From Methylohalomonas lacus (lineage in GTDB: Bacteria > Pseudomonadota > Gammaproteobacteria > Methylohalomonadales > Methylohalomonadaceae): 52,902 nucleotides of DNA. Below are positions 20,943 to 24,715 of the stretch, in pieces. A program made the translations under genes and the position numbers. The notes below the pieces were generated by a model, which ran no database searches, was not told the DNA's origin, and worked only from the letters and a program-made list of their open reading frames with translations. How positions within the stretch are numbered: position 1 is the first letter of the stretch; every line of letters starts with the position of its first letter. The stretch covers positions 1 to 52,902 of the forward strand of contig NZ_JANUCT010000019.1 in the NCBI RefSeq assembly GCF_024808875.1, in the 5' to 3' direction.

Positions 20943-22340
20943 TCAATCGTCAGCTTCGACGGGCTTATACCAGGCCAGCCGTTCGTGCAGCCTGACCACT
21001 TCACCGATAATAATAAGACTGGGGGGCCGGATATCATGTTCCGCAACGAGTCCTGGCAAGGTTGCCAGTGTTCCGGGGTAAACGCGCTGTTGCGGTGTTG
21101 TGCCTTTCTGTACCAGCGCCGCCGGCATGGTTTCCGCCATGCCGCGCGCAACCAGTTCACGGCAAAATACTTCCACTGCCTGCACCCCCATATAGACCAC
21201 AATGGTCTGACGCGGCTGGATCAGGGCGTCCCAGTTGATATCCATGTCGCCGTCTTTCATATGCCCGGTGACGAAAATGCATGACTGGGCATGGTCACGG
21301 TGTGTCAGCGGAATACCGGCATAGCTCGCGCAACCGGCCGCCGCCGTGATACCCGGCACAACCTGGAACGGTACGCCGGCTTCGGTCAGATCCTCAATTT
21401 CCTCGCCACCGCGGCCAAAGATGAACGGATCACCGCCCTTGAGACGCAGCACCCGCTTGCCCGCCCGGGCAAGCTGAACCAGCAACTGATTGATGTCATC
21501 CTGTGGCAGGGTATGCTTGTCACGCGCCTTGCCGACGTAGATGCGCTCGGCGTCGCGGCGCACCAGTTCAAGAATCTGTGTTGGCACCAGCCGATCGTAC
21601 AGAACCACATCGGCCTGCTGCATCAGACGCAGTGCCCGGAAGGTAAGCAGGTCCGGATCACCCGGTCCGCCGCCGACCAGGTAGACCTCGCCCCGGGGCC
21701 CGCTCAATGTACCGTCCTGCAAGCGCTGCTCAAGTGCTTCTAGGGCCGCCTTGTCCTGGCCGGCCATCAGCATCTCGGCGATCGGACCCTGCAACACTTC
21801 TTCCCAGAAGCGTCGCCGATCATGCTGGTCGGCAAAGCGTGCCTTGACCTTTTCGCGGAAATCGCGCATCAGGTCGGCCAGGCGCCCATAGGCTGACGGG
21901 ATCAGCGTTTCCAGGCGCGCGCGCAACAGCCGCGCCAGCACCGGCGAGGCGGCACCGGTGGAGATCGCGATCTGCACCGGGTCACGTTCAATGACCGACG
22001 GCATGATGAAGCTGCACAGCTCGGGATTATCGGCCACGTTGACCGGTATATTGCGCGCCTGCGCCGCCGCGGCAACGGCCCGGTTCACAGCCGCGTCGTT
22101 GGTGGCTGCAATCACCAGCGCCTGATCGGTCAATTGTGCCGCTTGAAAATCGCTGTCGAGGTGCTGGATTCGCCCGGTCGCATTCAGTGACTGCAACGCC
22201 GGATCAATCTGCGGCGCGACTACAGTCACCTGCGCGCCGCTATGCAGCAAACGGTCAACCTTACGCCGCGCGACATCACCACCGCCGACGACCAGGCAGG
22301 GTCGGCCGGAAAGCTCAAGGAAGATCGGCAGGTATTTCAT
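20943..22340 (-). CDS. cysG: Siroheme synthase, trifunctional
   Basis: This 465-residue enzyme makes siroheme from uroporphyrinogen III. The N-terminal precorrin-2 dehydrogenase/ferrochelatase half has the NAD-binding [18 protein letters not shown]. The C-terminal SAM-dependent uroporphyrinogen methyltransferase starts at [15 protein letters not shown] and contains [10 protein letters not shown]. Siroheme serves sulfite and nitrite reductases; neither is in the window. The ATG has only AGGGA about ten bases upstream. A heptamer array (22348-22382) begins seven bases before that start. Length and layout are normal for the family. Confidence 0.96.
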
Positions 22341-22347
22341 CGAATAG

Positions 22348-22382
22348 CGTCCCTTGCTCCTCGTCGCTCGTCCCTCGTAATC
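22348..22382 (+). repeat. Heptamer array A-left
   Basis: Five units are in strict 7-bp phase, of which three match NNCTCGT with NN = TC, CG, CC (22358-22378). It begins seven bases upstream of the cysG ATG and is the left arm of an inverted pair with 22399-22430. Confidence 0.8.
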
Positions 22383-22398
22383 GCAATTTACTAACCCT

Positions 22399-22430
22399 AC
22401 GAGAAACGAGGAACGAGCGACGAGGAACGC
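22399..22430 (-). repeat. Heptamer array A-right
   Basis: Four perfect ACGAGNN units (NN = AA, GA, CG, GA) end five bases before the dcd stop codon. Bases 22406-22426 pair with 22358-22378 at 20 of 21 positions, so the dcd-cysG spacer can fold into a long hairpin. Confidence 0.85.
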
Positions 22431-22434
22431 AAAA

Positions 22435-23001
22435 TCACGTTTTCGGCAAGGTCACTCCGCGCTGGCCCTGGTATTTGCCACCACGGTCCCTGTAGGACAC
22501 ATCACAGGGTTCATCCGATTCCAGGAAAATCACCTGGGCAACACCTTCGTTGGCATAGATCTTCGCCGGCAGCGGCGTGGTATTGGAGAATTCCAGTGTC
22601 ACGTGGCCTTCCCATTCCGGTTCCAGCGGTGTGACATTGACGATGATGCCGCAGCGCGCGTAGGTCGACTTGCCCAGGCAAATGGTCAGTACATTGCGCG
22701 GAATCCGGAAGTATTCCACCGTGCTCGCAAGCGCAAAGGAGTTCGGCGGGATCACGCAGACGTCACCCTGGAAATCGACGAAAGACTTCTCATCGAATTT
22801 CTTCGGATCGACGATCGTGGTATTGATATTGGTAAATATCTTGAACTGATCGGCACAACGCAGATCGTAGCCGTAGCTCGAGGTGCCGTAGGAAATCAGC
22901 CGTTCGGAACCGTTGTATTTAACCTGGTTCGGTTCAAACGGTTCGATCAGGCCCTCGTTCTCGGCCATGCGCCGGATCCAGTGGTCGGATTTAATTGTCA
23001 C
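22435..23001 (-). CDS. dcd: dCTP deaminase
   Basis: This 188-residue enzyme deaminates dCTP to dUTP, feeding thymidylate synthesis. It matches the Pseudomonas-type Dcd throughout ([57 protein letters not shown]). The start is GTG (VTIKSD in place of MSIKSD). The codon lies inside a degenerate fifth unit of heptamer array B, and the array supplies the only Shine-Dalgarno-like GAGG, three bases upstream. The downstream end meets array A-right. Confidence 0.96.
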
Positions 23002-23038
23002 GTGCCTCGTCCCTCGTTCCTCGTCACTCGTTCTTCAT
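22997..23038 (+). repeat. Heptamer array B
   Basis: Four perfect NNCTCGT units (NN = GC, CC, TC, CA; 23004-23031) are flanked by degenerate units. It occupies the whole spacer between dcd and the S23-family gene and is the left arm of a 31-bp inverted repeat with array C. Confidence 0.88.
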
Positions 23039-23473
23039 AAAAGAGTCACGAGATGATCTTAATCAGTTTGCGCAGCATCCTGGACTCATGATCCAGCATA
23101 TCCAGAATCTTGTTCTTCTCAGCATCAGCAATGAATTCAAGTTCCGAGCCGATTTCAAGCTGGGTTTCCAGTTCCGCACAGGAACTCAGGGCCATCAGAA
23201 GAAAGCGGCGATAATCCTTGTCATGCAGTCTGTTAAATCCCTCGGCAATATTGGAAGGTATGGATACGGCCGCCCTTCTCATTTGAGAGACAAGACCATA
23301 TTTTTCTTCCAAGGGAAACAGGGCTGTTAATCGATAAATTTCTATTGTGAGATTCTTGCCTACTCGCCACACCTTCAAATCCTTGAAGTTCCTGGTTTCC
23401 ATTCCGGCCTCCTGCCGCTGGTTTGATCTCGTCCTTACCCTGCGAGCGACGAGGAACGAGGGACGAGGGACGT
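23000..23473. mobile_element. Putative S23-family element bounded by a 31-bp inverted heptamer repeat
   Basis: Bases 23000-23030 and the reverse complement of 23443-23473 agree at 29 of 31 positions, including the order of the variable dinucleotides. The repeat encloses a single gene of the four-helix-bundle/23S-intervening-sequence-protein family. The unit sits between dcd and mrp with no other sequence. Mobility is inferred from this structure; no transposase or target duplication is visible. Confidence 0.5.
23046..23402 (-). CDS. Four-helix-bundle protein, 23S rRNA intervening-sequence (S23) family
   Basis: This 118-residue protein carries the family signature: FKDLKVWRVGKNLTIEIY at the start, then RRAAVSIPSNIAEGFNR, then FLLMALSSCAELETQL. 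These small alpha-helical proteins were first seen encoded inside intervening sequences of 23S rRNA genes; a relative, Avd, is the accessory protein of diversity-generating retroelements and binds nucleic acid. No rRNA, reverse transcriptase or variable repeat is present here. GGAGG lies five bases before the ATG. The gene is enclosed by inverted heptamer arrays B and C, whose pairing would put it in the loop of a long stem. Biochemical role unknown. Confidence 0.9.
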   Translation of the reverse strand: METRNFKDLKVWRVGKNLTIEIYRLTALFPLEEKYGLVSQMRRAAVSIPSNIAEGFNRLHDKDYRRFLLMALSSCAELETQLEIGSELEFIADAEKNKILDMLDHESRMLRKLIKIIS

Positions 23474-23477: not shown

Positions 23478-24569
23478 TCACGTATTCTCCACCACTATAT
23501 TCGGGAACTTGCTGCTGTAGTCGCGCGCGCGCAGGGCCAGCTTGGCGGCCGAGCGGCGGGCGATGTTGCGGAATATTTCGGTGGTGCGTGACTTCGGCTG
23601 CAGCGCCACGGTCGGCTTGCCGTTGTCGACGCCCTCGCGGATGTCCATGGCCAGCGGCAGGGCACCGAGCATCTCGGTATCGTACTGTTTGGCCATGGAC
23701 TCACCACCGCCCTCACCGAAAACGTGTTCCTCATGTCCACATTCACTGCAGATATGAATGCTCATGTTCTCGACCACGCCGAGCACCGGCACTTCGACCT
23801 TCTCGAACATCTTCAGCGCCTTGCGCGCATCCAGCAGGGCGATGTCCTGCGGCGTGGTGACGATGATAGCGCCGCTGACCGGGATCTTCTGGCACAACGT
23901 CAGCTGGATGTCGCCGGTGCCCGGCGGCAGGTCGATGACCAGGTAGTCGAGATCGCGCCAGTTGGTGTCGTTCAGCAGTTGTTCCAGCGCCGAGGTGACC
24001 ATCGGGCCACGCCAGATCATCGGTGTTTCCTCATCGATGAGGTAGCCGATCGACATGGACTGGATGCCGTAGCTGACCTTGGGCTCGACGGTCTTGCCGT
24101 CGGTGGTTTCCGGCTTGCCCTGGCAACCGAGCATGCGCGGCTGGCTGGGGCCGTAGATGTCGGCATCGAGCACGCCGACGCTGGCACCTTCGGCCTGCAG
24201 CGCCAGGGCGAGATTCACCGCCACGGTGGACTTGCCGACACCGCCCTTGCCGGAGGCGACGGCGATGATGTTCTTCACGTTGGCCAGCGGCTTCAGACCT
24301 TTCTGGGTCGCGTGGGAAACCACCTTCTGCTGCAGGTCGAGCTCGATGGCGCGCTCGCCGGCAATACCGGCCAGACACTCGCGCACGCTCTGCTCGATGG
24401 CCTCGCGGGCGCCGGCGAACGGGAACCCGAAAGTCAGGCTGACGCGCACGCGCGCATCCTCGACCTGGATATCGCCTACAGCCCCGGCACTGACCGGGTC
24501 GGTCTGCAGGCTTTCGATCTGGCACGTGGCCAGTGCTTCCTGGATACGCTCTTTCGTCAGTTCGGACAT
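23478..24569 (-). CDS. apbC: Mrp/ApbC-type iron-sulfur cluster carrier ATPase
   Basis: I start at the ATG giving MSELTKERIQ (363 residues); the frame is open further upstream without family support. An N-terminal DUF59/MIP18-like domain (about 1-90) precedes a P-loop domain with the deviant Walker A GKGGVGKST. A CSECG motif (CxxC) near the end holds the bridging cluster. It delivers Fe-S clusters to apo-proteins in the cytoplasm. It diverges from metG, a common gammaproteobacterial neighbour. The stop lies two bases from heptamer array C. Confidence 0.95.
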   Translation of the reverse strand: MSELTKERIQEALATCQIESLQTDPVSAGAVGDIQVEDARVRVSLTFGFPFAGAREAIEQSVRECLAGIAGERAIELDLQQKVVSHATQKGLKPLANVKNIIAVASGKGGVGKSTVAVNLALALQAEGASVGVLDADIYGPSQPRMLGCQGKPETTDGKTVEPKVSYGIQSMSIGYLIDEETPMIWRGPMVTSALEQLLNDTNWRDLDYLVIDLPPGTGDIQLTLCQKIPVSGAIIVTTPQDIALLDARKALKMFEKVEVPVLGVVENMSIHICSECGHEEHVFGEGGGESMAKQYDTEMLGALPLAMDIREGVDNGKPTVALQPKSRTTEIFRNIARRSAAKLALRARDYSSKFPNIVVENT

Positions 24570-24715
24570 GGGATAAATCTGGGCACTTCGGGATTGACTT
24601 GAACGGCCCATATTAGCATCTTGCAGGGCTTTGTGAGTGCCCGGATGCGTTACAATGCGCAACCAGCAGCCCGAAACCGACATTCATCCGCGATAAGCAG
24701 CCAGAGACCCGAGCC

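Follow-up and report, generated by a model that had tools for sequence, protein, structure and literature searches.

A gene-less heptamer hairpin between dcd and cysG of Methylohalomonas lacus as a companion of S23-bearing elements

Heptamer repeats are abundant in bacteria and have been recorded as simple repeats that lack an explanation. In Methylohalomonas lacus two opposite-facing arrays of a 7-bp unit, enclosing no gene, lie between dcd and cysG, close to an S23 gene flanked by arrays of its own, and the question is what kind of element the gene-less pair is and how it is related to its neighbour. A preliminary description had suggested a companion of the S23 element, either a shortened derivative or a solo hairpin. 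The window analysed here is the whole 52,902-nucleotide contig NZ_JANUCT010000019.1.

Direct reading of the window bore out the gene-less pair. The left arm (22348-22378, minus strand, 31 bp) reads CGTCCCTTGCTCCTCGTCGCTCGTCCCTCGT, that is, CTCGT-NN heptamers on the plus strand and ACGAG-NN heptamers on the minus strand; a 20-bp loop (22379-22398, AATCGCAATTTACTAACCCT) separates it from the right arm (22399-22429, plus strand, 31 bp) of ACGAG-NN heptamers, ACGAGAAACGAGGAACGAGCGACGAGGAACG. The unit is NNACGAG. The 20-bp spacing and the match at 20 of 21 positions between the opposite-facing arms (22358-22378 with 22406-22426), both reported previously, were confirmed. A search for three consecutive ACGAG units (ACGAGNNACGAGNNACGAG, up to two mismatches) gave 23 matches in the window, against 0.07 expected. 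The hairpin occupies the whole junction: dcd stops at 22435 and cysG starts at 22340, and of the 94 bp between them 8 bp are left on the cysG side and 4 bp on the dcd side, both genes being on the minus strand. The predicted RNA fold of the gene-less copy has an energy of -51.6 kcal/mol, compared with -26.8 kcal/mol for shuffled sequences (z -7.6), and a stem of more than 20 bp. Nothing in the window matched Rfam.

All four genes of the neighbourhood are on the minus strand, in the order mrp/apbC, S23, dcd, cysG. The gene for an mrp/apbC-type ParA-family Fe-S carrier (23478-24683; Pfam ParA, 1.5e-105, and FeS_assembly_P) is upstream of the S23 element, dcd (22435-23001; dCTP deaminase, Pfam DCD, 3e-36) lies between the S23 and gene-less elements, and cysG (20943-22340; sirohaem synthase, Pfam TP_methylase, NAD_binding_7 and CysG_dimeriser) is transcriptionally downstream of the gene-less hairpin. 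The S23 element occupies the mrp-dcd junction, 570 bp from the gene-less hairpin. Its two 31-bp arms, at 23001-23031 (minus strand, 3' of the ORF in the gene sense) and 23442-23472 (plus strand, 5' of the ORF), are predicted to pair as a long perfect outer stem (z -5.0), and the GTG start of dcd overlaps an arm edge. The S23 (23S rRNA intervening-sequence protein) gene between them (23046-23402, minus strand) is intact and encodes 118 aa (PF05635, 4.3e-36) in which the conserved residues of the family are kept. An AGGAGG Shine-Dalgarno sequence (23408-23413), five bases before the ATG, is within the stem. Solved relatives are XCC0516 (2gsc) and 2rld, with five chains in each entry. The full copy encodes S23 alone, a small helical-bundle protein; no transposase, HUH or DDE, was identified in it, and no reverse transcriptase or TR/VR pair was identified beside it. 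The dcd-cysG hairpin shares the ACGAG heptamer with this element, and full and gene-less forms coexist in the genome.

The two copies also share the edge motif pointed out earlier, at 22394 in the gene-less copy (ACCCTACGAG) and at 23437 in the S23 copy (ACCCTGCGAG). The chance of finding ACCCT at one fixed offset, with four possible comparisons, is about 0.004, and this sequence likeness is suggestive of a link between the gene-less copy and its S23 neighbour as a pair. As a mark of the whole family the motif did not hold up: in 165 kb of M. lacus sequence around the other arrays, ACCCTRCGAG was found just at these two dcd-flanking places. An edge common to the neighbouring S23 copy only, together with the operon position and the stable stem, would suit a regulatory RNA without mobility, an attenuator, processing site or stabiliser of the mrp-dcd-cysG mRNA, whose likeness to the S23 copy arose by local duplication or gene conversion.

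The rest of the genome bears on this. The paired-heptamer pattern ACGAGNRACGAG gave 49 matches in the 2.76-Mb genome, against one with the reversed control, so the idea that there are no other copies is refuted. Among the matches are about ten other hairpins that lack a gene (at C3:191484, C11:7360, C11:9200, C14:12680, C16:27696 and C16:47526, for instance), mostly in small gaps between co-directional genes. The same arms at about ten unlinked loci argue against a purely local origin. The loops of these hairpins, of 0-110 nt, are unrelated to one another, and inspection by eye showed no remnant of S23 in any of them, which leaves derivation by shortening or deletion of a full copy unsupported; of the earlier suggestions, solo hairpin is the better. 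Near these other copies the only Rfam match was RNase P, a neighbour. A second S23 gene of this genome, at the leuC-leuD junction (L045, G000:C2:183521-183838), has one in-frame TAG and decayed arms with a heptamer that differs from ACGAG.

In gammaproteobacterial relatives most S23 genes lie between inverted 7-bp arrays, with a unit that differs by genome. A survey across many phyla was made with 80 named S23 loci, 77 of them scorable, arms being called at an inverted match score of at least 14 between the two 300-bp flanks, and 231 positions in the same DNA served as controls. Inverted arms were present at 61% of the 77 loci and at none of the 231 control positions (Fisher p 2e-35), and period-7 arrays on both flanks at 52% of S23 loci compared with 0.4% of controls. 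The arm period was 7 in 52 of 76 cases and 8 in 13, other periods occurring at most twice except for the harmonic 14; period-8 arms are found in L113, L153, L107, L112 and L151. An arm reached score 14 with its own partner in 60.5% of cases but with partners from other loci in only 0.8%, so the two arms change together. Across the class, S23 genes are thus linked to inverted heptamer arms whose two sides vary jointly. Where the flanking genes were co-directional, S23 was in the sense orientation 57 times and antisense four times (p 5e-13, with crude gene calling), and the elements show a bias to operon junctions and to the sense strand. The remaining loci of the survey are similar in size to the full copy in the window and lie between neighbouring genes. 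In another genome (L062) an S23 element with heptamer arms is inside the 23S (LSU) rRNA gene, which joins the class to the classical intervening sequences (IVSs). Among the elements with good arms in L095-L174, 43 have unequal G and C in the 5' arm, and in 37 of these G exceeds C; the window elements belong to the C-rich minority. No published link between S23 and heptamers was found in the open-access literature, preprints being outside the scope of the search, and an earlier report is possible.

Gene-less companions were also found in other genomes. Further arrays of the locus's own heptamer were present within 5 kb of S23 at 8 of 40 loci, compared with 2.3% for foreign heptamers, and gene-less inverted pairs of the own heptamer at 5 of 40, compared with 0.26% (p 9e-7); the companions at L117, L164, L167, L106 and L096 closely resemble the window copy. 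The GGGANTA pattern matched 28 and 12 times in two genomes with GGGANTA arms and not at all in ten others. Thirteen gene-less hairpins from M. lacus and other genomes had predicted folds with z of -3 to -9.5 and stems of 13-30 bp. Full and empty forms with a common heptamer thus occur in this and in unrelated genomes, the gene-less pair is indeed a companion of the S23 element, and the relation seen by the earlier reader is true and non-trivial. Arms with matching heptamers beside the S23 elements of unrelated genomes weigh further against a regulatory RNA of local origin; arrays in Xanthomonas, largely fixed in place (PMC4692102), count in favour of one. Taken together, such an RNA seems unlikely.

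Two orthologous junctions were compared. Most of the gammaproteobacterial genomes compared have a short carA-carB junction (20-55 bp). In Pseudoxanthomonas and Ramlibacter (L146, L103) and in G506 (L239) it carries an S23 element of about 450 bp. In one xanthomonad genus 6 of 20 species have S23 elements there, with three different heptamers. According to species (L265-L284) the junction is occupied by S23 elements, VanZ-like ORFs or other small ORFs; in this genus it is a hot spot for small inserts. At argC-argH of the same genus gene-less hairpins are found in G516, G527, G451 and G526 and a remnant in G517; elsewhere in the genus there are solo GGGAATN-type arrays, in many species, or no array, and the array-free junctions are those of G529, G515 and G523, with remnant-like bases in G515 and G523. 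In the four hairpins the units change and the pairing stays: 94% of cells are paired, six pairs having two-sided changes, compared with 52-62% when the partner is slid by one column. The main unit of the gene-less argC-argH copy was that of the carA-carB S23 element in all four species that have both (GGGACCG in G527 and G517, GGGACTC in G526, GGGACCC in G451), which is no more than suggestive of a match within species, 2 of 24 permutations matching equally well with four species. Across many genomes neither junction gave a clean occupied/empty pair; occupants vary and arrays change in place. No target-site duplication was visible at argC-argH or at the window copies, and no clean one at carA-carB.

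A second heptamer family of M. lacus, ATACGAG, is a dispersed element of about 85 bp that occupies about a dozen unlinked sites and is conserved in its interior. The heptamer array at the right end varies (G000 C1, C2, C3, C10, C11, C26 and C27; L175-L188). In the window a perfect right-hand array of this family, 13.6 copies on the minus strand, reaches the contig end (52808-52902), and the contigs C26, C27 and C29 likewise break within long perfect ATACGAG arrays, so the contigs do not give true array lengths. In a deltaproteobacterial MAG (L096, 1110-1250) CGTATCTCG/CTTCACGAG units are almost identical to those of this family. The conserved interior at unlinked sites would fit a MITE-like deletion derivative moved at the DNA level by a transposase in trans, as for IS-derived MITEs or REPINs with RAYT, and inverted termini, many copies and full and empty forms would fit it too. 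A MITE, however, should have a transposase-bearing autonomous relative, whereas the full element here encodes S23 only; no target-site duplication was found, the own-genome loops have no common internal remnant, and the strong sense-strand bias of full elements is unusual for a DNA transposon. We consider this origin improbable. The earlier comparison with REPIN and MITE relations survives at most as an analogy: all are short hairpin repeats with and without a gene-bearing partner, but here the partner encodes S23, with no transposase identified, and the window arms are tandem 7-bp arrays rather than REP hairpin cores in inverted pairs.

One ATACGAG copy, at C11:78157, has amplified the unit GACAAAC where its sister copies have GAGATAC, as if an array had grown in 7-nt steps from the element terminus. 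This growth, and the alternation of solo arrays and paired hairpins at argC-argH, might be explained by simple-sequence expansion, slippage making heptamer tracts and hairpin-templated errors adding inverted partners, with S23 as a passenger. Expansion leaves unexplained both the arms at S23 genes across phyla (61% against 0 of 231) and the near absence of other periods, and we think it very improbable.

Several known systems resemble the window copies in part. IVSs with an S23p ORF interrupt bacterial 23S rRNA in Salmonella, Leptospira and Coxiella (PMC4990558). That of Coxiella has heptameric repeats and terminal inverted repeats and is cleaved by RNase III in vitro; the same 2016 study called the function and origin of IVSs unclear more than 25 years after their identification (PMC4990558). 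Like IVSs, the S23 elements carry an S23 ORF oriented with the host transcript and have terminal inverted repeats that form a stem. The dcd-cysG copy shares the terminal inverted repeats and the long predicted stem but has no S23 ORF, which its S23 neighbour has. Unlike IVSs, the window copies are at operon junctions between mrp, dcd and cysG, not in 23S rRNA, and their arms are made entirely of heptamers. In Xanthomonas and Nostoc, (GGGANTN)n heptameric repeats have been discussed as G-quadruplex formers; each Xanthomonas genome has 70-75 inverted pairs that converge, and 83% of the Xanthomonas arrays keep their position between two species (Rehm 2015, PMC4692102); the terms S23 and "intervening" are absent from that paper. 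These repeats, too, are intergenic 7-bp arrays with inverted pairs, but the window unit, NNACGAG, lacks GGG runs, and a G-quadruplex explanation was ruled out for ACGAG arrays, which have no G-runs. TAACTGA repeats, patchily distributed in Beggiatoaceae, cyanobacteria and Bacteroidetes, are likewise intergenic and of 7 bp, but almost all are direct arrays; an unknown "repeat-binding protein" was suggested as the mobile element, with no link made to S23 (MacGregor 2015, PMC4679880). Finally, the Avd protein of diversity-generating retroelements is homologous to PF05635 (4DWL compared with 2GSC, PMC10053308); neither an RT nor a TR/VR pair was identified beside the S23 element.

The dcd-cysG hairpin is an inverted pair built of the heptamer of the S23 element and fills a co-directional junction, as S23-linked hairpins do. 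We propose a class of elements that lie where co-transcribed genes meet and consist of inverted arrays of 7-bp units (8 bp in some taxa) folding into a stem of about 20-30 bp, some with S23 in the loop and some without. That the dcd-cysG feature is a gene-less member of such an IVS-type class, its stem open to cleavage by RNase III and possibly to recognition by S23, seems to us probable. By analogy with 23S rRNA IVSs, the stem in the dcd-cysG mRNA would be cut by RNase III, either removing the insert or splitting the message and leaving the coding sequences unharmed; such elements may be tolerated in operons and rRNA genes because the cutting spares coding sequences. As the Shine-Dalgarno sequence of the window S23 is within the stem, the excised RNA could still be translated. 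Less firmly, S23, as a relative of Avd, may bind the heptamer arms, and S23 from the full copy may recognise gene-less copies and perhaps spread them or keep them in step. Arrays would lengthen in 7-nt steps, with a copying process keeping both arms alike. Some findings weigh against the proposal: the search for target-site duplications and clean occupied/empty pairs came up empty, and 83% of Xanthomonas arrays occupy matching sites in two species (PMC4692102), which implies that arrays seldom move between those genomes and commonly turn over in place. The sense-strand bias of S23 could also reflect selection for expressing a promoterless gene.

The most speculative part of the mechanism is spread through RNA. 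S23 might bind the stem in mRNA or rRNA and hand it to reverse transcription and insertion machinery acting in trans; gene-less hairpins would then be non-autonomous passengers, and the heptamer arrays of Xanthomonas, cyanobacteria, Beggiatoaceae and Bacteroidetes would largely be traces of one class. We offer this tentatively and find it rather doubtful.

The statistical link between S23 genes and their arms across phyla, together with gene-less companions of the same unit, makes the origin of IVSs and of heptamer repeats directly testable. The heptamer stem becomes a candidate ligand for the orphan protein family PF05635, and 23S rRNA inserts and seven-letter repeat arrays may, tentatively, be joined into one class of elements.
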